Of a stretch of DNA of 64,000 bases, positions 2,383-22,821 are shown piece by piece (within the stretch, counting starts at the first letter, position 1; each line of letters opens with the position of its first letter). Both the position numbers and the translations under genes were made by a program. The stretch is from Clostridia bacterium (GTDB lineage Bacteria > Bacillota_A > Clostridia > Christensenellales > Aristaeellaceae), in NCBI GenBank assembly GCA_017938645.1, contig JAGBBE010000075.1, forward strand, positions 41,688 through 105,687, given 5' to 3'. The notes under the pieces were generated by a model that was given only the letters and a program-made list of their open reading frames with translations, made no database searches and was not told where the DNA came from.

Positions 2383-3552
2383 TCACAGGCTGATCAGATC
2401 ATGGATTTTTTCCCAATCGTCGCAGCCCAGACGCTTGAGCATGTGCGCCGCATACCGGTCAAACGCCGTATGGTCGATCAGGCGGAAGGCTGCGGCAGCT
2501 ACGTCCACAAAGTCAGACGTTTCCGTTTTGTCCCACAGCCAGCCGATGCCCAGAAAACGCAAAAGCGCATACACCGCGCACAGGGCAACAAATTCGTCGC
2601 GCAGGCTTTCAGGACGATCCTGGAAAGGAAACTGCACAAAAAACATATGGTTGACCAGCATGTGCTCAAACCAGATATCCCACTTGGGATAGGCGGTCTC
2701 AAAATGGGCGCGCGCCCGGGCATAGCGCTGGAAGGAACCTTCATCCTCTCCAAAATACGCAAGCGCCGCCTCGCCGTATTCGCGGATGCTCACGCTGCGT
2801 TCATCCAGCAGCGCCAGCATTCCTCTGGCCACCTCGAGGCCAAAGTTCAGCTGCCCCTGCGCCAGCTCCTGCGGCTGCAAAGGACGGATGCGCCTCTGTC
2901 CCAGCAGAAGCCGCTGCACCTGATGCTCGTCCCGTTCGGCCAGCGCCTCGTCCAAAGCCCACAGTGCGTGACCCATGGCCATCAGCCGCTGCGGAAGCGG
3001 AAGCGCCTGCTGCTGCATCTGACGGATCAGCCACAGCCGGATCTCCTGCGCGCGTCCGAGGGTTTCAAAGTGCACCTCGCGTTCAGACGAATCCGGCAGC
3101 TTCAGCGTCAGCATCCGTTTTTCAAAGGCAATCGGCTCGTCACGGGAAAACAGAAGCTCCAGCACGCCTTCGCAGCTGTTGGCGCAGGAACACTCGCTCG
3201 CGCCGTCCAGACGCGCGCCGCGCGGGTACAGCCTGCATACGCTGGAGAGCACCTCCTCACCCATCTCCGCATGCAGCCAGCAGCGGCCGTCGTCCATGCG
3301 CAGCGGACAGTTGCCATCAAAGCGCGGAGAGATCTCCGCATACGATTCCGGCGTGGGATGCAGCTTGATGTGCATCGCACCATCCAGCCTGCGCCGCAAG
3401 TCCGGGCTGCATTCCATGCCCAGCAGGCGGTAATAGTCCTTCAGCGAAAACGAGATGGGCCACCCTACGCAGCACGCCGCGCGGCATGATCCCATCTTGC
3501 AGGTAAAGTGCTCAAAATAATCAGGCACCAGATATTCCCGTTCCTCTTTCAC
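2383..3552 (-). CDS. FliB-like (flagellin) lysine-N-methylase family protein
   Basis: 389 residues. The cysteine-rich N-terminus fits the FliB family: FTCKMGSCRAACCVGWPI, then CPLRMDDGRCWLHAEMG and LSSVCRLYPRGA, a pattern suggesting a metal or Fe-S site. FliB relatives methylate lysines of surface flagellin; no flagellar gene is visible here, so the substrate is open. The start is taken as GTG at 3552, preceded by AAAGGAAGGG. An upstream in-frame ATG at 3582 would sit at or before the predicted transcription start (promoter at 3585-3614), so it is less likely. Transcribed alone. Confidence 0.65.
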   Translation of the reverse strand: MKEEREYLVPDYFEHFTCKMGSCRAACCVGWPISFSLKDYYRLLGMECSPDLRRRLDGAMHIKLHPTPESYAEISPRFDGNCPLRMDDGRCWLHAEMGEEVLSSVCRLYPRGARLDGASECSCANSCEGVLELLFSRDEPIAFEKRMLTLKLPDSSEREVHFETLGRAQEIRLWLIRQMQQQALPLPQRLMAMGHALWALDEALAERDEHQVQRLLLGQRRIRPLQPQELAQGQLNFGLEVARGMLALLDERSVSIREYGEAALAYFGEDEGSFQRYARARAHFETAYPKWDIWFEHMLVNHMFFVQFPFQDRPESLRDEFVALCAVYALLRFLGIGWLWDKTETSDFVDVAAAAFRLIDHTAFDRYAAHMLKRLGCDDWEKIHDLISL

Positions 3553-3584
3553 CCAGGTCCCTTCCTTTGGTTGAATTCGCACGC

Positions 3585-4345: not shown

Positions 4346-5899
4346 TTATGCCTCCTGATCGCCGATGGAGTCCTTTACCGTGACCAGCACCTTGCGCTCG
4401 TAGCAGCTGAACACCTGCTCCACCAGCGCGCGGTCAGGTCTGGGCGTGAGGATGCTCACAACCGGCACAATGATGAGTCCGGCGATCATGCAGAACGCGC
4501 CCGCGTTGATGGGACTCTGAAGAACAGCCGGGAACAGGCCCTTGGCCACGACATTGGCAAGCATCACCACGGTGGAAAAGACAAAGCTCGCCCAGACGCC
4601 CGCCCTGGTGGTGCGCTTCCAGTAGAGGCCGAAGAGGAAGGGCGCCAGGAATGCGCCAGCCAGAGCGCCCCAGCTTACGCCCATGAGCTGGGCGATGAAG
4701 GTGACGCTGGATTTGTACTGAACAATGGCCAGCACCACAGAAATCGCAATGAACACCACAATCAGCGCGCGCATAATCAGAAGCTGTTTCTTTTCGTCCA
4801 GCTCCTTGACGACGGTTCCCTTGATGAAATCAAGCGTCAGCGTCGAGGCGGATGCCAGCACCAGCGAAGACAGCGTGGACATGGAGGCCGACAGCACCAG
4901 AATGACCACGATGGCAATCAGGAAGGTGGAAAGTCCCGAGAGCATGGTGGGAATCACGCTGTCAAAGCCATTGGCGGCGATGTCGATCTGCGCGGAGAAG
5001 AGCCGTCCGAAGCCTCCCAGGAAGTAACAGCCTCCGGCCACGATCAGCGCAAACACGGTGGAAATGATCATGCCCTTGTTGATGGCCTGTTCAGACTTGA
5101 TGGCGTAGAACTTCTGCACCATCTGCGGCAGACCCCAGGTGCCAAGCGAGGTGAGAATTACCACACCCAGCAGGTTGACCGGGTCAGGCCCGAAGAAGGA
5201 CGCGAACACGCCGGGCGTGGAGGACACCGCCGGGTCGGATACCTGACCCAGTTTGTTCAGCGCCTCGAGGAAGCCGCCCTGTCCCTTGAGCACGGCGCCG
5301 ATGACGGCAATGATGCCCACAATCATGATAATGCCCTGAATGAAGTCGTTGATAGCGGTGGCCATGTATCCGCCGGCGATGACGTAGACGCCGGTCAGAA
5401 CCGCCATAACAATGACGCAGATGGAGTAGTCGATGTCAAACGCCATGCCGAACAGGCGGCTGAGGCCGTTGTACAAAGATGCGGTGTAGGGAATGAGGAA
5501 GATGAAGATGATCGCCGAAGCCGCCAGCTTGAGCGCCTTGGAATCGAAGCGCTTTTCGAAGAACTGAGGCATGGTGGCGCTGTCGAGATGCTGGGTCATC
5601 ACGCGGGTGCGGCGTCCAAGCACCGCCCACGCCAGAAGCGAGCCCAGAAGCGCATTGCCAATGCCCGCCCACGTAGCGGCAATGCCGTACTTCCAGCCGA
5701 ACTGACCGGCATAACCCACAAACACAACCGCAGAGAAATACGAGGTGCCGTACGCAAAGGCCGTAAGCCACGGGCCGACGCTGCGTCCGCCCAGCACAAA
5801 GCCATTCACATCCGTCGCATGGCGGCGGCAATACAGGCCGATCCCAATCATAACGCCAAAGAATACCACAAGCATTGACAATTTGATAAACAGATCCAT
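4346..5899 (-). CDS. Sodium:solute symporter (SSS family, PutP-like)
   Basis: 517 residues, strongly hydrophobic with about 13 membrane segments, matching the length and layout of PutP/PanF-type symporters. Segments include FVLGGRSVGPWLTAFAYGTSYFSA in the first two helices and IAGGYMATAINDFIQGIIM near residue 185, the region that contributes sodium and substrate contacts in the family. Substrate cannot be read from sequence; proline or a related small organic solute is plausible. First gene of an operon with the methyltransferase. The start ATG is at 5899 behind GAGGC. Its upstream region runs into a family B repeat. Confidence 0.85.
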   Translation of the reverse strand: MDLFIKLSMLVVFFGVMIGIGLYCRRHATDVNGFVLGGRSVGPWLTAFAYGTSYFSAVVFVGYAGQFGWKYGIAATWAGIGNALLGSLLAWAVLGRRTRVMTQHLDSATMPQFFEKRFDSKALKLAASAIIFIFLIPYTASLYNGLSRLFGMAFDIDYSICVIVMAVLTGVYVIAGGYMATAINDFIQGIIMIVGIIAVIGAVLKGQGGFLEALNKLGQVSDPAVSSTPGVFASFFGPDPVNLLGVVILTSLGTWGLPQMVQKFYAIKSEQAINKGMIISTVFALIVAGGCYFLGGFGRLFSAQIDIAANGFDSVIPTMLSGLSTFLIAIVVILVLSASMSTLSSLVLASASTLTLDFIKGTVVKELDEKKQLLIMRALIVVFIAISVVLAIVQYKSSVTFIAQLMGVSWGALAGAFLAPFLFGLYWKRTTRAGVWASFVFSTVVMLANVVAKGLFPAVLQSPINAGAFCMIAGLIIVPVVSILTPRPDRALVEQVFSCYERKVLVTVKDSIGDQEA

Positions 5900-5940: not shown

Positions 5941-6104
5941 TCATCCCGATCACACAAGCGAGCCGGGAGGCCCTCCGGTGCATTCGCTCACCGCAGGTGC
6001 GGCGGTCTTATGTACAAAACCAAACTCTATCGCCCACCCCCGCGAAGCGGTCCGGGGTCCAGGGGCTCAGCCCCTGGTCAGCCCCTGGTCAGCCCCTGGT
6101 TTGG
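5941..6104 (-). repeat. Family B interspersed repeat, longest copy
   Basis: On the minus strand the order is CAGGGGCTGAGCCCCTG, ACCCCGGACCGCTTCGCGGG, a GGTTTTG...AAGACCGCCG segment, and GGCTCGCTTGTGTGATC. The same modules in the same order recur at 36953-37075, with shortened versions at 51393 and 56860. The end nearest the ligase gene has three tandem 11-bp units TCAGCCCCTGG at 6067-6099. Hairpins dominate; no ORF is credible. Confidence 0.75.
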
Positions 6105-7723
6105 GCTTCGACCAGACGGCCTTTGCAGTACTTTTCGCGAAGGACGGGCTTTTCGATCTTGCCGGTGGGATTGCGCGGGACCTTGTCAAAGATCAGCCTG
6201 CGCGGACGCTTGTAGCGCGGAAGCGCTTTGCAGAAGTCGTTGATCTCGTCCTCGGTGCAGTCAAGGCCTTCCTTGATCTCGATGATCGCGGCGGCAATCT
6301 CGCCCAGACGCGCGTCCGGCAGACCGATGACGGCGACGTCCTTGATCTTCTCAAAGCCGCGCAGGAAGTCCTCGATCTGAACGGGATAGAGGTTCTCGCC
6401 GCCGGAGATGACGACGTCCTTCTTGCGGTCAACAAGGTAGATGAAGCCGTCTTCGTCCTGCCTGGCCATATCGCCGGTGTAGAGCCAGCCGTCCCGGAGC
6501 ACTTCGGCGGAAGCCTCGGGATTTTTGTAGTAACACAGCATCACGCCGGGGCCGCGGACGATCAGTTCACCCACATCGCCCTGCGCAACCTCCTGCCCGC
6601 GCTCGTCGACGATTTTCGTCTCCCACAGAGACCCGGGAACGCCGATGGCGCCGACCTTGTGCACGTTTTCCACGCCCAGATGCACGCAGCCGGGGCCGAT
6701 GGATTCGGACAGGCCGTAGTTGGTGTCGTACTGGTGGTTGGGGAAGAGCTTGAGCCAGCGGTTGATGAGGCTGGGCGGCACGGGCTGCGCGCCGATATGC
6801 ATCAGCCGCCACTGATCGAGCATGTAATCGCCGATGCTCACCTTGCCCGCGTCAACAGCGTCAAGCAGATCCTGCGCCCACGGCACGAGCAGCCATACGA
6901 TGGTGCACTTTTCCTCGGATACGGCGCGGAGAATCCACTCAGGCTTCACGCCGCGCAGGAGCACCGCCTTGGAACCAGCCAGCAGGCTTCCGAACCAGTG
7001 CATCTTGGCGCCGGTGTGGTACAGCGGCGGAATGCAGAGGAACACGTCGTCGCGGCTCTGGGAGTGGTGCTTCTGCTCGGTGAGGCAGGAGGACACCAGC
7101 GCACGGTGATTGTGCAGGATGGCCTTGGGAAAGCCCGTGGTGCCGGAAGAAAAATAGATGGCGGCGTAATCGTCGTCGGTGAGGGCAACGGGCGGCGCGG
7201 AGGTGGAGCAGAACTCCACCAGCCGCAGGTAATCCTCGGTGTAATCCGGGCCGTTCTTGCCGACGAAGAACATGGTGCGCAGATGCACTTTGGAAGCGAT
7301 GGCGTCCATGCGGCTGACGAACTCGGGGCCGAAGACCAGAATGTCCACGTCCGCCAGATCGAGACAGTACTCGATTTCATCGGAGGAATAGCGGAAGTTC
7401 ATGGGCACCGCGATGCAGCCCGCCTTGAGAATGCCGAAATACACCGGCAGCCACTCCAGACAGTTCATCATCAGGATGGCCACCTTGGCTCCGCGCGGCG
7501 TTGCGCGGCTTAGGAGAAGGTTGGCGAACTTGTTGGCCTTGCGGTCAAACTCGTTCCACGTCATCTCGCGGCGGTACGGGGTATCGGGGCTGGCGGATGC
7601 AATCAGGTTGAGTTCGCGCCAGGTCACGGCGTTGTCGCGTTCCTCGGAGGGGTTGATCTCCACCAGCGCGGTTTCCGCGCCGTAGAGCCGTGCGTTTCGC
7701 TCCAGAAAATCGATAATAGGCAT
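6089..7723 (-). CDS. Acyl-CoA synthetase (AMP-forming), class I adenylate-forming ligase
   Basis: 544 residues. Family motifs in order: P-loop AIYFSSGTTGFPKA near residue 190, the YGLSE segment (A4), YTGDMARQDEDGFIYLVDR (A7/A8) with KDVVISGGENLYP, and the C-terminal lysine segment NPTGKIEKPV that completes adenylation. Such enzymes activate a carboxylic acid with ATP and load it on CoA; chain length is not readable. The start is the ATG at 7723 behind AAAAGGAGGC. The leader upstream is a T-box, which is unusual for this family. The stop codon (6089-6091) lies inside the first of three 11-bp tandem units of a family B repeat, so the extreme C-terminus is repeat-derived. Confidence 0.85.
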   Translation of the reverse strand: MPIIDFLERNARLYGAETALVEINPSEERDNAVTWRELNLIASASPDTPYRREMTWNEFDRKANKFANLLLSRATPRGAKVAILMMNCLEWLPVYFGILKAGCIAVPMNFRYSSDEIEYCLDLADVDILVFGPEFVSRMDAIASKVHLRTMFFVGKNGPDYTEDYLRLVEFCSTSAPPVALTDDDYAAIYFSSGTTGFPKAILHNHRALVSSCLTEQKHHSQSRDDVFLCIPPLYHTGAKMHWFGSLLAGSKAVLLRGVKPEWILRAVSEEKCTIVWLLVPWAQDLLDAVDAGKVSIGDYMLDQWRLMHIGAQPVPPSLINRWLKLFPNHQYDTNYGLSESIGPGCVHLGVENVHKVGAIGVPGSLWETKIVDERGQEVAQGDVGELIVRGPGVMLCYYKNPEASAEVLRDGWLYTGDMARQDEDGFIYLVDRKKDVVISGGENLYPVQIEDFLRGFEKIKDVAVIGLPDARLGEIAAAIIEIKEGLDCTEDEINDFCKALPRYKRPRRLIFDKVPRNPTGKIEKPVLREKYCKGRLVEAQTRG

Positions 7724-7750
7724 GTGATGCGCCTCCTTTTTCTTCTTCCA

Positions 7751-8023
7751 AAAAAATAACGCCCTCTGCCAAATACAGCAGAGGACGGGATTCATTCCGT
7801 GGTACCACCTCATGTTTACCGCAATATGCGGCCTCGCAGGGCCTATCAGCCCCTGGCGCTGTATCGGGCGCGCCCGTCGCGGTCTACTGGCATAAGCGTT
7901 TGACCCCGCCGCTCAGAAAGGTATTTCCATATCGGCTTCCCGCTGCCTTGCACCACCCGGCAGCTCTCTGAAGGGACAGACCCCGACATGTACTTGGATT
8001 TCGTCATCGCGTTTGGATTTATG
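7751..8023 (-). promoter_or_regulatory. T-box riboswitch leader controlling the acyl-CoA ligase
   Basis: Minus strand. The T-box antiterminator core AGGTGGTACCACGG is at 7810-7797, followed by a terminator hairpin CCTCTGC/GCAGAGG (7784-7763) and a T-run ending at 7751, about 28 bases before the start codon. Stem I is visible: CATGTCGG (7990-7983) pairs with CCGATATG (7935-7928), capped by the AGAGAG bulge and GCTGCC/GGCAGC distal arm with GGTGGTG loop. The AGTA and GAA sides of the specifier loop are present. The specifier lies within GAAATAC (7927-7921); I cannot decide between ATA, TAC and AAT, so the sensed tRNA is unresolved. Confidence 0.9.
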
Positions 8024-8029
8024 GTTGGA

Positions 8030-8058
8030 ACTTTACCACACGCGACAGGGATTGTCAA
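8030..8058 (-). promoter_or_regulatory. Promoter of the T-box transcript
   Basis: Minus strand TTGACA (8058-8053), 17-base spacer, TAAAGT (8035-8030). Predicted start near 8023, giving a leader of about 300 bases. Confidence 0.8.
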
Positions 8059-8167: not shown

Positions 8168-8977
8168 ATGGAGCGTATCCATCAGGGGCATACCGGCGGT
8201 TTCCAATACGCAGTGCTGGATTTTGACGGCACCGTCTCGCTTGTGCGCGAGGGCTGGCAGGGCATCATGGTGCCCTATTTCATCGACGAGATGGGCAAAG
8301 CGCCCGGCGCAAAGGAATTTTCCGAGGCGGAAATCAGCTACAAGGTACGCGACTTCGTCACCGTGCTCACCGGCAAGCAGACGATCTACCAGTGCATCCG
8401 GCTGGCTGAGGAAATCACGGCGCTGGGCGGCACGCCGGAGGATCCGCAGGTGTACAAGGACGAGTATCAGTCGCGGCTCTTAAAGCACATCGACGACCGC
8501 CTCACCGGCCTTGAAAACGGCTCGATTGATCCGGAAACGCTCACGGTGCCGGGCTCCTACGAGATGCTTGACATGCTCCTGCGCCACAATGTCACGCCCT
8601 ATCTGGCCAGCGGCACCGACGAGGTGTTCGTCCGGCGCGAGGCAAAGCTTCTGGGCGTGGACAAATATTTCGGCGAACACATCTACGGCGCGCAGCGCGA
8701 GTACAAGACCTTCTCCAAAAAGATGGTCATCGAGCGCATTCTGCGCGAAAATCAGCTGTCGGGTGAGAAGCTGCTGGGCTTCGGCGACGGCTATGTGGAA
8801 ATCGAGAACGTGCGCGAGGTGGGCGGCTATGCCGTGGGCGTGGCCAGCAACGAAAGCGAGCGCAAGGGCATCGACGAATGGAAGCGCGAACGCTTAATCC
8901 GCGCCGGAGCCAACATCATCATCCCTGATTACCGCGATATCGGCGAACTCGAACGCGAACTGTTCGGCACGAAGTAA
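8168..8977 (+). CDS. HAD-superfamily phosphatase
   Basis: 269 residues. HAD motif I is AVLDFDGTVSL near residue 16 (nucleophile Asp and acid/base Asp), motif II is PYLASGTD near residue 145, and motif IV is LLGFGDGYVE near residue 205. A helical cap domain lies between motifs I and II, as in phosphoglycolate-phosphatase-like enzymes; it does not look like the cap-less GmhB of heptose synthesis. The ATG at 8168 is chosen because GAGGTG lies six bases before it; the in-frame GTG at 8159 is part of that site. First gene of a cluster of sugar-phosphate enzymes, so a sugar phosphate is the likely substrate. Confidence 0.8.
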   Translation: MERIHQGHTGGFQYAVLDFDGTVSLVREGWQGIMVPYFIDEMGKAPGAKEFSEAEISYKVRDFVTVLTGKQTIYQCIRLAEEITALGGTPEDPQVYKDEYQSRLLKHIDDRLTGLENGSIDPETLTVPGSYEMLDMLLRHNVTPYLASGTDEVFVRREAKLLGVDKYFGEHIYGAQREYKTFSKKMVIERILRENQLSGEKLLGFGDGYVEIENVREVGGYAVGVASNESERKGIDEWKRERLIRAGANIIIPDYRDIGELERELFGTK

Positions 8978-8990
8978 GGAGGAACACAGC

Positions 8991-9959
8991 ATGCCTTTTC
9001 CCATGTTTGACCGCTCCCGCATCATCCTCAAGCCCATTTCCGAGCGCATCCACGACCTTGACCTGAGCGTGATGAAGCCCGCCGTAAGCGACAACGGCTA
9101 CCGTCATCCCACCATCGACATTCTGGCTGACCGCATCCGCGCCGCCAAAGAAAAGAATGCCAACGTCACCATGATGCTGGGCGGACATGTGATCCGTTCC
9201 GGCGTTGCGCCCTCCATGATCGCCATGATGGAGGCCGGTTACATCACCCACTTCGCCATGAACGGCGCGGCGGCCATCCACGACTTTGAGTTTGCCCTCA
9301 TCGGCGCGACCACCGAAAGCGTGGCCAAGTACATTTCCGAAGGCCAGTTCGGATTGTGGAACGAGGACGGGCTGTACAATCAGGCCATCAACGAGGGCGT
9401 GCGGGACGGCCTCGGTTTCGGCGAAGCGCTGGGACGCTTCATCGAGGAGCACGAATTCCCCTACCGCCAGTACAGCCTGCTCGCCGCTGGATACCGCAAT
9501 CAGGTGCCGGTCACGGTGCATGTGGGCGTTGGCTGCGACATTGTGCACGAGCAGCCCAATGCAGACGGCGCAGCCATCGGCGAGGCCAGCTACCGTGACT
9601 TCCTCATCTATACCCACTGCATCGAAAACCTCGAAAACGGCGTCTTCCTCGACTTTGGCTCCGCTGTGATCGGCCCGGAGGTCTATCTCAAGGCGCTGAG
9701 CATGAGCCGCAACGTCGCCCATCAGGAAGGCAGACAGATCGCGCACTTCACCACAGCGGTATTCGACCTGCTCGACCTTGAAGGCAAGGACGTTCAGGAA
9801 ACGCCGCCCAAGAGCGATCCGCGCTACTACTTCCGCCCGTGGAAGACCATCATGTCGCGCACGGTTTCCGACGGCGGCGAGGGCTATTATGTGCAGGGCG
9901 TCCACAAGGACACCGTTCCCGCCCTGTGCTGGAATCTGCTTGGAGGCGAAGGCAAATGA
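8991..9959 (+). CDS. Conserved protein of unknown function in the sugar-phosphate cluster
   Basis: 322 residues, soluble, no signal peptide. I do not recognise a named family with confidence. Notable segments are MMLGGHVIRSGV near residue 60, MNGAAAIHDFEFALIGATTE near 90, VTVHVGVGCDIVHEQPN near 180, FGSAVIGPEVYLKALSMSRN near 220, and RYYFRPWKTIMSRTV near 275. Their glycine-rich, strongly patterned look suggests an enzyme with a Rossmann-like nucleotide or sugar-nucleotide site. The start ATG follows GGAGGAAC, 13 bases after the phosphatase stop, and the stop overlaps the next start (ATGA). This tight coupling puts it in the same pathway as the kinases and isomerase. Confidence 0.7.
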   Translation: MPFPMFDRSRIILKPISERIHDLDLSVMKPAVSDNGYRHPTIDILADRIRAAKEKNANVTMMLGGHVIRSGVAPSMIAMMEAGYITHFAMNGAAAIHDFEFALIGATTESVAKYISEGQFGLWNEDGLYNQAINEGVRDGLGFGEALGRFIEEHEFPYRQYSLLAAGYRNQVPVTVHVGVGCDIVHEQPNADGAAIGEASYRDFLIYTHCIENLENGVFLDFGSAVIGPEVYLKALSMSRNVAHQEGRQIAHFTTAVFDLLDLEGKDVQETPPKSDPRYYFRPWKTIMSRTVSDGGEGYYVQGVHKDTVPALCWNLLGGEGK

Positions 9960-10966
9960 CGCTTGAAAGGCTCAACGAGCTGTTTTCCCGCTTTTCCTCG
10001 CTTCATCTGACGGTGGCCGGCGATCTGTTTTTAGACCGCTGGTATGAAATCGACACCGCGCTCAACGAACCCAGCGTGGAAACCGGGATTACGGCCTTTC
10101 AGGTGGTGAAAAAGCGCTCCGCCGCCGGAGCTGCCGGAACCGTGCTCAATAACCTGAGCGCCATGGGCATCGGCACGCTCGAATGCATCTCCCTCGTGGG
10201 CGACGACGGCGACGGCTGGGAAATGCAAAAGCTGCTCCGTCAGCGCGGCGTGGACACCTCCGGCGTGATTGTCTCCTCCCAGGTCGTTACGCCCTCCTAT
10301 ATCAAGCCTCTCTTTCCCGAGGAGGGCAACCGCCTCGATATCAAAAATTTTTCACCAACGCCTGAAGATCTGCAGGATGAAATCATCCGCCGCATGGAGG
10401 AAGCCCTTAAGCGCTCCGACGCGCTTGTGCTTCTGGATCAGGTGTGCGAAAAGGACACCGGCGTTCTGACCTCGCGCGTGCGTCAGGCCGTATCCGACAT
10501 AGCCCGGCGCCATCCCGGCAAGCTCATCTACGCCGACTCGCGCGCCTTCATCCACCTCTACCGGGACATGGTGATCAAATGCAACGAGCTGGAAGCCGCG
10601 CGCATGACAGGACGTGCCGAAGCGGATTTTGATCCCGAAACCGTGTTTGCGTGCATGGATGATCTGCGCCGTCTCACCGGGCATCCGGTGGTCGTCACCT
10701 GCGGAAAGCACGGCGTGGCCGTGGAGGAAAACGGCGAAAAACAGATCGTTCCCGCCGTATCCCAGCCCGGGCCCATCGACGTGTGCGGCGCGGGCGATGC
10801 GTGCTCTGCGGGCCTTGTCAGTGCGCTTTGCGCAGGCGCATCCTACGCCGAGGCAGCCGAAATCGGCAACCTTTCCTCCGGCGTCACGGTGCGCAAGCTC
10901 GGCCAGACCGGCACGGCCAGCCAACTGGAAATGCTCGCTCTCTACATTGAACAGCAGAAGGGATGA
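9956..10966 (+). CDS. PfkB-family carbohydrate kinase, HldE N-terminal-like
   Basis: 336 residues. The glycine-rich GAAGTVLNNLSAMG near residue 60 and the catalytic DVCGAGDACSAG near residue 275 are the two PfkB signatures; the Asp of GAGD is the catalytic base. The N-terminal VAGDLFLDRWYE resembles heptose-7-phosphate kinases of the HldE/RfaE type. There is no fused nucleotidyltransferase domain, unlike HldE of Gram-negatives. The start ATG (9956) overlaps the preceding stop by four bases; GGAGG lies nine bases upstream. With the GmhA-like isomerase three genes on, a heptose or related sugar phosphate is the likely substrate, but this is inference. Confidence 0.8.
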   Translation: MTLERLNELFSRFSSLHLTVAGDLFLDRWYEIDTALNEPSVETGITAFQVVKKRSAAGAAGTVLNNLSAMGIGTLECISLVGDDGDGWEMQKLLRQRGVDTSGVIVSSQVVTPSYIKPLFPEEGNRLDIKNFSPTPEDLQDEIIRRMEEALKRSDALVLLDQVCEKDTGVLTSRVRQAVSDIARRHPGKLIYADSRAFIHLYRDMVIKCNELEAARMTGRAEADFDPETVFACMDDLRRLTGHPVVVTCGKHGVAVEENGEKQIVPAVSQPGPIDVCGAGDACSAGLVSALCAGASYAEAAEIGNLSSGVTVRKLGQTGTASQLEMLALYIEQQKG

Positions 10967-10972
10967 AGGCTC

Positions 10973-11893
10973 TTGGAAAGCTATCTTTGTCTGGACATCG
11001 GCGGCTCGAAGTATGTAGCGGGCATCATCCGCCGCGACGGAACCATCGTTGCCAAGCGCTCAGGGCGCTGGAAAAACCTGACCGCCGACCATGTCATGAG
11101 CACGCTCATCGCTGAAGCCCGGCTGCTTATGCTGGAATGCGGCGAAACGCCTGTGGCCATCGGCGCAACCATTCCAGGACTGACGGATGCCGAGCGCGGC
11201 ATGTGGGTGGAAGCCAGCTTTTCGGGCATCCGCGACCTTCCCGTGTGCGCGATGCTCACCGAGGCGCTCGGCCTTCCGGCGTACTGCGAAAACGACGGCT
11301 CGGCCTACGCGCTGGCCGAGATGATCTTCGGCTGCTGTCAGGACGTATCGGACTTCGTGTTCATGAACGTGTCCAACGGTATCGGAGGCGCGATTGTCAC
11401 CAATCGAAAGCTTTTGCGCGGACACCGCGGCAGCGCGGGCGAATTCGGCCACTGCCGCATCGTCGACGGCGGCAGAACCTGCAAATGCGGCCAGCAGGGC
11501 TGTCTGGAGGCCTATGCCGCAGGTCCGGCCATCACCCGCAACTATATCGAGCTGGGCGGCGACCCGGCGGACGCCAAAATGATTGCCCAGCGCGCCCGCG
11601 CAGGCGACAGCCCATTTGCGCAGGCTGTTTACGACATGGAGGGCGAATACCTTGGGCGTGTGCTGGCCATCGCCATCAACCTGTTAAATCCCGAACGTGT
11701 GGTCATCGGCGGCGGCGTATCGCTGGCCTTTGACGTGTTTGAGGAGACGCTTCGCTCCACCATTGCCGAGCAAACCTACACCAGCGCCAATCCTGATGTG
11801 GACATCCGTCCCACGCCGCTGGGCTACGACGCCGGGCTCTACAGCGGCGCAGCCATTGCCATCAGCCAGCGCGAGCATCTTTTCGGATATTAA
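10973..11893 (+). CDS. ROK-family sugar kinase
   Basis: 306 residues. ATP motif CLDIGGSKYVAG at the N-terminus, the catalytic-loop equivalent CENDGSAYALAE near residue 103, GIGGAIV near 138, and the ROK zinc site GEFGHCRIVDGGRTCKCGQQ followed by GCLE. All zinc and catalytic positions are intact, so it should be an active sugar or amino-sugar kinase rather than a repressor; no HTH is present. The start is TTG at 10973, six bases after the PfkB stop, with GAAGG upstream. Two kinases from different families in one operon suggest two successive or alternative phosphorylations. Confidence 0.85.
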   Translation: MESYLCLDIGGSKYVAGIIRRDGTIVAKRSGRWKNLTADHVMSTLIAEARLLMLECGETPVAIGATIPGLTDAERGMWVEASFSGIRDLPVCAMLTEALGLPAYCENDGSAYALAEMIFGCCQDVSDFVFMNVSNGIGGAIVTNRKLLRGHRGSAGEFGHCRIVDGGRTCKCGQQGCLEAYAAGPAITRNYIELGGDPADAKMIAQRARAGDSPFAQAVYDMEGEYLGRVLAIAINLLNPERVVIGGGVSLAFDVFEETLRSTIAEQTYTSANPDVDIRPTPLGYDAGLYSGAAIAISQREHLFGY

Positions 11894-11905
11894 GGAGGTA
11901 CAGAG

Positions 11906-12463
11906 ATGAAAGCCATGATGGAAGCCTACTGCACTGAGCTGTGCGCAGAGCTTCACAAGCTGGACGCAGCCGAGTTTGAAAAAGCCATCAATCTGCTCAA
12001 AGCCGCCTACGAAGGCGACAGGCAGGTCTTCATTGCCGGCAACGGCGGCAGCGCCGCCACGGCCAATCATTTTGTATGCGATTTCGGCAAAAACGCCATT
12101 CGGGGCGACCGCCGCCGCTTCCGTATTCTCTCGGTGTGCGACAACATCGAAAAAGTCACCGCACTCTCCAACGATATCGCTTTTGACGAATGCTTCCGCT
12201 TCCAGCTGGGCAACCTGATGCGTCCCGGCGACGTACTCATCGTCATCAGCGCCAGCGGCAACTCGCCGGATCTCGTCAACGCCTGTGCCTACGCCAAACA
12301 GCTCGGCTGCCCCATCATCGCCCTCAGCGGCTTCGGCGGCGGCAAGATCTGCGACGGCGCCTCCGCCGTGCTCAAAACCGACATGCGCAGCTACGAGCGC
12401 ATCGAGGATTTGCACTCATCCATCCTCCACATGTTTGTCTGCTGGTTCAAGGAAAACTACTGA
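11906..12463 (+). CDS. SIS-domain sugar-phosphate isomerase, GmhA-like
   Basis: 185 residues, one SIS domain covering nearly the whole chain. GNGGSAATANHFVCDFGK near residue 45 and SASGNSPDLVNACAYAK near 115 bind the sugar phosphate; RIEDLHSSILHM near the C-terminus corresponds to the D(V/L)H active-site segment of phosphoheptose isomerases. GmhA converts sedoheptulose 7-phosphate to heptose 7-phosphate. The start ATG follows AAGGAGGT, 12 bases after the ROK kinase stop. Last gene before a terminator. Other sugar-phosphate isomerase roles remain possible. Confidence 0.8.
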   Translation: MKAMMEAYCTELCAELHKLDAAEFEKAINLLKAAYEGDRQVFIAGNGGSAATANHFVCDFGKNAIRGDRRRFRILSVCDNIEKVTALSNDIAFDECFRFQLGNLMRPGDVLIVISASGNSPDLVNACAYAKQLGCPIIALSGFGGGKICDGASAVLKTDMRSYERIEDLHSSILHMFVCWFKENY

Positions 12464-22671: not shown

Positions 22672-22745
22672 TGGGGAATTGTGTAACGGCAGCACCTACG
22701 ACTCTGACTCGTATTGTCTAGGTTCGAATCCTAGTTCCCCAGCCA
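22672..22745 (+). tRNA. tRNA-Gln (CTG anticodon)
   Basis: Acceptor arms TGGGGAA/TTCCCCA, D arm, anticodon stem TACGA/TCGTA with loop CTCTGAC giving anticodon CTG, and T arm TAGG-TTCGAAT-CCTA. The CCA end is encoded (22743-22745). Confidence 0.93.
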
Positions 22746-22746
22746 A

Positions 22747-22821
22747 GGCTCCATGGTCAAGCGGTTAAGACGTCGCCCTCTCAAGGCGAAATCAGGGGTT
22801 CGATTCCCCTTGGAGCTGCCA
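22747..22821 (+). tRNA. tRNA-Glu (CTC anticodon)
   Basis: Acceptor arms GGCTCCA/TGGAGCT (first pair G-U), anticodon stem TCGCC/GGCGA with loop CTCTCAA giving anticodon CTC, T arm GGGG-TTCGATT-CCCC, encoded CCA. One base separates it from tRNA-Gln. Confidence 0.93.

Follow-up and report, generated by a model that had tools for sequence, protein, structure and literature searches.

A tyrosine T-box before a CoA ligase and a symporter gene in Clostridia, a likely switch for the recycling of aromatic acids

The described systems closest to the locus presented here are the tyrosine T-box leaders (RF00230) of tyrS genes, the amino acid transporters under T-box control, and the salvage of arylacetates through an indolepyruvate-type ferredoxin oxidoreductase (IOR) that passages of PMC13285125 propose for a methanogen and for Bacteroides. 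According to the same passages, IORs act on phenyl-, hydroxyphenyl- and indolepyruvate, and their reverse operation has been proposed in a methanogen. AMP-forming ligases are said there to typically favour acyl-CoA synthesis, and in Bacteroides an AMP-forming arylacetate-CoA ligase adjoins an IOR. A report cited in that source has the IOR of Bacteroides thetaiotaomicron forming phenylacetate from phenylalanine.

The leader studied here resembles those of tyrS in its match to the full model, its UAC specifier loop, its UGGU bulge and its transcriptional terminator. It differs from them in its target, a CoA ligase and a symporter instead of a synthetase, and in that some orthologous leaders carry UUC (Phe). 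As with the T-box amino acid transporters described in passages of PMC2494555, the specifier hints at the kind of substrate that a transporter takes; here, however, an SSF transporter goes together with a CoA ligase, which would make an acid precursor the likely cargo and not the amino acid itself. Like the salvage proposed in PMC13285125, the system has an AMP-forming ligase beside an IOR in relatives. Unlike it, it combines FadD-like and PaaK-like ligases, a symporter, an ACT protein and Tyr/Phe T-box control, and in the window ior is not adjacent.

The window, that is, the whole 64-kb stretch of Clostridia DNA that was analysed, contains the following features of the locus:

4346..5899, minus strand: Na+/solute symporter (SSF), 517 aa (PF00474, 194.6 bits)
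6089..7723, minus strand: AMP-forming acyl-CoA ligase, 544 aa, ATG at 7723 (PF00501, 241.6 bits; PF13193, 39 bits)
7732..7737, minus strand: ribosome binding site AGGAGG, 8 nt ahead of the ATG (read by hand)
7760..7787, minus strand: intrinsic terminator, 12-bp stem followed by the T run TTATTTTTTT (terminator search and folding)
7778..8016, minus strand: T-box leader RNA RF00230 (111 bits, cut-off 93, E 1.1e-23, model 1-219, full length)
7797..7810, minus strand: T-box core AGGTGGTACCACGG (Rfam alignment)
7807-7804, minus strand: UGGU for the tRNA acceptor end, inside the T-box core (predicted pairing)
7911..8013, minus strand: Stem I with specifier loop and distal AGAGA / GGTG arm (alignment of 25 leaders)
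7921..7923, minus strand: specifier UAC (Tyr; TAC in DNA), from the specifier bulge position and tyrS leaders
8030..8058, minus strand: sigma-70-type promoter-like site TTGACA-17-TAAAGT with TG ahead of the second hexamer (10/12 consensus positions)

On its alignment to the family, the leader is a genuine, ordinary T-box of the transcriptional type. The match is full length, Stem I with its specifier loop and distal arm is found, and a UGGN antiterminator is mutually exclusive with the terminator, the stretch CGTCCTCT being common to the terminator 5' arm and the antiterminator 3' arm (Rfam alignment). It is the sole cis-regulatory RNA above the Rfam threshold in the window, where the other two matches are tRNAs. 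Compensatory changes affect 9 of the 10 predicted pairs of the distal helix of Stem I in the 25-leader alignment, and the window Stem I scores 89 bits against model R1 (see below), to whose training set it belongs. Folded in isolation, the terminator segment gives -20.0 kcal/mol, and the antiterminator segment gives a different, weak hairpin of -5.1 kcal/mol in which the Rfam antiterminator helix is not formed. The promoter-like site and the terminator were each found once, against shuffle means of 0.4 and 0.6; being near chance by consensus alone, they are supported by their place around the T-box. The sequence-only reading of this DNA had described a promoter, Stem I, antiterminator core and terminator directly before the ligase ribosome binding site, and had proposed comparison with the RF00230 covariance model. 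All of these elements are present on the minus strand, and that comparison recovers Stem I, the specifier loop and the antiterminator, with the terminator after them.

The specifier was read from its position in the bulge. According to the description in PMC7778990, a T-box database paper, the specifier occupies positions 2-4 counted from the bulge end; applied to the 3' side of our bulge, GAAAUACC in the Rfam alignment, this rule gives UAC and thus predicts Tyr. Leaders of synthetase genes agree: the tyrS loops read GAAATAC in Angelakisella massiliensis (L111) and in L228, and GAATTAC in L229, and other synthetase leaders carry UUC (pheS, L116), AAC (asnS, L108) and GUC (valS, L098). The six calibrating synthetases and the tyrS product of L012 match NCBIfam equivalog models above cut-off, the tyrS proteins used for calibration scoring 392 to 417 bits (cut-off 113.8). 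ATA, TAC and AAT had all been considered within GAAATAC from the letters alone; TAC stands, and ATA (Ile) and AAT (Asn) are ruled out by the bulge position together with the tyrS, pheS, asnS and valS leaders.

The ligase has both ANL domains, PF00501 and PF13193, above cut-off. It matches 108 NCBIfam models, none of the best 25 listed at its own cut-off, and solved structures yield general relatives alone, FadD5 and FadD13 among them (best 235 bits), so that no match in either collection fixes its substrate. The window symporter is 62% identical to the symporter in the conserved operon of a relative, L014. The ligase is a putative arylacetate-CoA ligase and the symporter a putative arylacetate importer, presumably co-transcribed. 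Neither ior nor paaK is found anywhere in the window; the part of the operon present here is ligase and symporter alone. A search of a plasmid collection gave one short, partial match. Other genes were recorded around the locus. A divergent run on the plus strand (8168-12463) encodes a HAD hydrolase, a GSU2086-family protein and a ROK kinase, plus a PfkB-like and a SIS-like protein identified by eye. Two genes 3' of the symporter lies a FliB-like flagellin lysine-N-methylase (2383-3582, minus strand; 141.9 bits, cut-off 85), and neighbouring tRNA-Gln (CTG) and tRNA-Glu (CTC) genes occupy 22672-22821 on the plus strand.

One scan of genome contigs gave at least 596 ligase relatives, and conservation of the leader was followed in the best 80, which are 68-82% identical. 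A motif scan found GGTGGNACC leaders ahead of 24 of the 80 ligases. These and the window leader (alignment A1, n=25) served to train R1, a model of the Stem I region, which recovered all 25 training leaders and two extra ligase leaders (L062 and L073). The check for the same T-box before orthologous ligases, suggested by the earlier reading, thus gives presence in 26 of 80 relatives and absence in 54, with six of the 80 contigs holding less than 700 nt upstream of the ligase, and with L046 left out of the 26 since its T-box precedes another gene, upstream of the ligase. RF00230 places the ligase leader above cut-off in 8/8 of the leader genomes scanned whole (8 of the 26; 101 to 137 bits), and it is also above cut-off in 18/18 loci examined singly, namely L021 and 17 of 30 loci from the order-wide scan described below.

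The specifier columns of A1 read T-x-C: UAC (Tyr) in 21 of the 25 leaders and UUC (Phe) in 4. In a second alignment of 57 matches, a set biased by the training of R1 on such leaders, UAC occurs 53 times and UUC 4 times. A quick ligase tree of 99 rows has 42 labelled ones, two of which carry the leader on a symporter gene immediately upstream. It calls for at least 4 changes of specifier, the sister pair L201/L208 being one that differs, and for at least 20 switches between having and lacking the leader, which has therefore been gained or lost often. The alternation between Tyr and Phe in the aligned specifiers points to an aromatic compound.

In L014 the annotated order is ligase, SSF symporter, iorA, iorB, PaaK-type ligase and ACT-pair protein. 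Its iorA product scores 695.5 bits with TIGR03336 (IOR_alpha; cut-off 650.9) and that of iorB 284.7 bits (cut-off 230); the PaaK-type (phenylacetate-CoA) ligase reaches 497 bits, under its cut-off of 646.3. Members of this operon were located in the loci of other relatives by tblastn. The regulon in relatives thus comprises symporter, iorAB, paaK and the ACT protein, and it is on these neighbourhoods that the relevance of the Tyr specifier to the ligase rests. Counting iorA as adjacent when on the same strand and up to 9 kb downstream or 6 kb upstream of the ligase, we found it near 34 ligases, downstream in 33 of the 34 (33/80 relatives), with partial matches at contig ends counted and with all 80 contigs retained, 12 of which have less than 4.5 kb of sequence beyond the ligase start. 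A T-box on the ligase and a nearby iorA showed no association: iorA is near 10 of the 26 ligases with a leader and near 24 of the 54 without, the upstream case being among the latter (p 0.64). In whole genomes, IorA was above cut-off in 21 of the 26 with a T-box ligase; three spirochaetes among the 26 have a shorter homologue (506 to 516 bits, under cut-off), and G011 and G015 gave no near-full-length IorA match, only short or distant ones. The isolate A. massiliensis combines the Tyr leader, the ligase and the symporter with an IorA that exceeds the cut-off.

By R1, one of 26 iorA loci from T-box-ligase genomes has a T-box of its own. In this locus, L041, a UAC leader precedes the ligase and a separate UUC leader lies immediately before iorA; the remaining iorA loci that are not behind a T-box ligase are mostly without a T-box by R1. 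The order-wide scan added two loci arranged as L041 is, L197 and L198, with a Tyr leader on the ligase and a Phe leader on iorA. As the three ligases form one clade, the arrangement probably arose once. It is what one would expect of a ligase under Tyr control and an iorAB-paaK block under Phe control, with the IOR shared. A gene for a PaaI-like hotdog thioesterase was also seen upstream of the ligase in 6 of the 80 relatives (L008, L010, L012, L015, L041 and L049).

Among the 26 leader genomes, prephenate dehydratase is found in 22 and chorismate synthase in 23. De novo synthesis is thus mostly kept, which rules out obligate auxotrophy as a general reason for salvage; recycling would spare synthesis, not replace it. 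G008, G020 and G024 have neither gene and G014 has no prephenate dehydratase, most of these being incomplete assemblies.

R1 was also run across 394 genomes of the order of A. massiliensis and gave matches in 357, although it finds other T-boxes too. The 44 best matches represent 42 loci, two of them already in our set. Behind the 40 new leaders the first gene is that of the ligase in 16, of an SSF symporter in 15 and tyrS in 7 (by eye, with an acetyltransferase-like gene in between in two cases and a short frame in one). The other two leaders precede genes for binding proteins, one of them PF04392 (ABC_sub_bind). Standing first in 15 of 40 loci, the symporter is a T-box target in its own right. 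Tyr-type T-boxes ahead of lipoprotein-like binding proteins were noted in L211 (PF04392, ABC_sub_bind), L213 and L046, where the binding-protein gene adjoins the ligase on its upstream side.

The 248 spirochaete genomes of the class of G013 gave a T-box match in 108 and two matches in 7. We inspected six of these seven (G012, G013, G487, G511, G522 and G533; G469, with 71 and 56 bits, was left out), and in 6/6 the ligase and the symporter each have one of the two T-boxes ahead of them, on separate contigs and all with UAC. Two of these genomes have long ligase contigs, L025 and L028, and there the 8 kb or so around the ligase hold no symporter. G014 has a single T-box, before the ligase, and G542 a single one, before the symporter. 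That separately placed genes carry the same tRNA specificity argues strongly for the symporter and the ligase acting as one unit. Many of the single spirochaete T-boxes inspected (L247-L267) precede a thrS-like gene, confirmed in L247, with ACC readable in several; the notion that spirochaetes otherwise have no T-boxes is ruled out by these.

Regulation of the ligase by tyrosine through the T-box is strongly supported by these comparisons. We think it likely that this T-box switches on the uptake and activation of arylacetates, to be carboxylated by IOR on the way to Tyr or Phe. When tyrosine is short, uncharged tRNA-Tyr in the cell would pair with the leader at two points, UAC in Stem I and the antiterminator UGGU. 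The antiterminator would thereby be stabilised at the expense of the terminator, and transcription would run on into the ligase and the symporter behind it. The symporter would import an aromatic acid, most likely 4-hydroxyphenylacetate and/or phenylacetate, and the ligase would convert it to the CoA thioester. IorAB, encoded in the same operon in many relatives and presumably elsewhere in the genome of the window, would reductively carboxylate the thioester to (4-hydroxy)phenylpyruvate, which a transaminase would turn into Tyr or Phe. We infer the acid and this direction of the IOR; AMP-forming partners and a switch opened by shortage favour biosynthesis over catabolism. Recycling of the acids is thus probably turned on when the amino acid is short. 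Several points weigh against this view: the lack of ior and paaK in the window, the 54 relatives that have no leader on the ligase, the frequent changes of the leader on the tree, the missing statistical link to iorA, the rarity of T-boxes on iorA itself, the genomes where IorA is short or has no near-full-length match, the retained de novo synthesis, a ligase substrate fixed by no match, and the phenylacetate formation reported for the IOR of B. thetaiotaomicron. The sequence-only reading had linked amino acid starvation to the activation of amino-acid-derived acids, and this suggestion gains support from the leader in 26 of 80 relatives, the UAC specifier and the Tyr/Phe regulon.

A different view, which we find unlikely, accepts the T-box as genuine and has the symporter and the ligase handle some other tyrosine-related compound, with IOR not the next step. 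The symporter could then carry the amino acid itself, and the ligase could act on an arylpropionate, a cinnamate or another acid. The ligase substrate, fixed by no match, is compatible with this, as are the window and the many relatives without an adjacent ior and the occurrence of T-box symporters with no ligase alongside. However, iorA lies on the same strand within 9 kb past the ligase in 33 of 80 relatives (contig-end partial matches counted), three loci have a Phe T-box on iorA beside a Tyr T-box ligase, and the L014 operon includes a PaaK-like phenylacetate-CoA ligase (under its model cut-off), all of which argue for arylacetates and IOR.

The same genes could also be read as a catabolic operon, in which IOR would oxidise arylpyruvates to arylacetyl-CoA and the ligase would run in reverse or clear products. 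IOR and related enzymes are described as oxidative in several anaerobes in passages of PMC13285125 and PMC13290082, and the thioesterase genes upstream of 6 of the 80 ligases would suit such a role. We nevertheless judge it very improbable, as a T-box opens its genes during amino acid shortage. Besides, the catabolic loci presented in those passages often have an ATP-yielding phosphotransacylase/kinase, whereas AMP-forming ligases are found here and the recurring operon clusters, going by their annotation, hold no kinase or transacylase. Even less credence is given to the idea that the leader is a recently captured tyrS T-box, physiologically unrelated to the ligase. R1, trained on ligase leaders, does pick up tyrS leaders as well, and the descent of another T-box from a tyrS T-box is described in a passage of PMC2494555; yet this ligase has the leader in both halves of the tree, the specifiers that were read being Tyr or Phe, and in spirochaetes the partner symporter has one too, at a site apart from the ligase.

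A branched-chain counterpart bears on the proposed recycling of aromatic acids. Five genomes (G001, G002, G003, G004 and G007) carry two tandem genes, each with its own T-box; read by eye, the specifier is AUC (Ile) on the first gene in 5/5 and GUC or GUA (Val) on the second in 5/5. AMP-binding and cupin domains are found in 10/10 of the encoded proteins and a helix-turn-helix match in 8/10 (loci L128, L129, L130, L131 and L133). VOR-type genes come after the tandem ligases in L129 (POR_N, PFOR_II, POR) and L131 (POR_N, PFOR_II, ferredoxin); L130 has none behind its ligases as far as it was read, and the L133 stretch is too short to show them. A. massiliensis has a Val T-box ahead of a lone AMP-forming ligase; another, for Ile, stands ahead of a small HTH-type gene and the ligase after it. 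Divergent from the tandem ligases is a LeuA-type gene with a T-box of its own, read by eye as CUG (Leu) (L128 11138, L129 10152, L131 13471; the L131 gene product has PF00682 and PF08502).

These loci suggest a general plan of one T-box per acid. We lean, by a little, towards the wider view that gut and rumen anaerobes have a tRNA-sensing recycling regulon, in which each ligase for a fermentation acid would carry a T-box for the one amino acid that can be rebuilt from it. Tyr/Phe T-boxes would then serve aromatic acids via IOR and Ile/Val T-boxes the cupin-ligase fusions, while composite operons would read two amino acids, Tyr at the ligase and Phe at iorA.

Full-text literature searches for T-box together with indolepyruvate ferredoxin oxidoreductase, phenylacetate-CoA ligase or acyl-CoA synthetase found no paper, and T-box with acyl-CoA and ferredoxin oxidoreductase found a Geobacter genome paper only. 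CoA and oxidoreductase, searched as word starts, are absent from the main text of the T-box surveys PMC2494555 and PMC3766115. The target is thus likely to be new, though this is not proven, the 2008/2009 surveys by Vitreschak and Gutierrez-Preciado lying outside our scope, and genes of this kind may stand unremarked in T-box databases.

The direction of IOR in the gut is disputed: phenylacetate production is reported for B. thetaiotaomicron, and passages of PMC13285125 suggest a biosynthetic role from ligase biochemistry. Control by uncharged tRNA-Tyr or tRNA-Phe would be a separate line of evidence that IOR works biosynthetically in these Clostridia, and a recycling regulon, if true, would be strong evidence for that direction in these oxidoreductases. 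Moreover, the T-box link predicts a function for a hitherto unassigned family of CoA ligases and for a family of SSF symporters. It suggests that cross-fed aromatic acids may be rebuilt into amino acids on demand.
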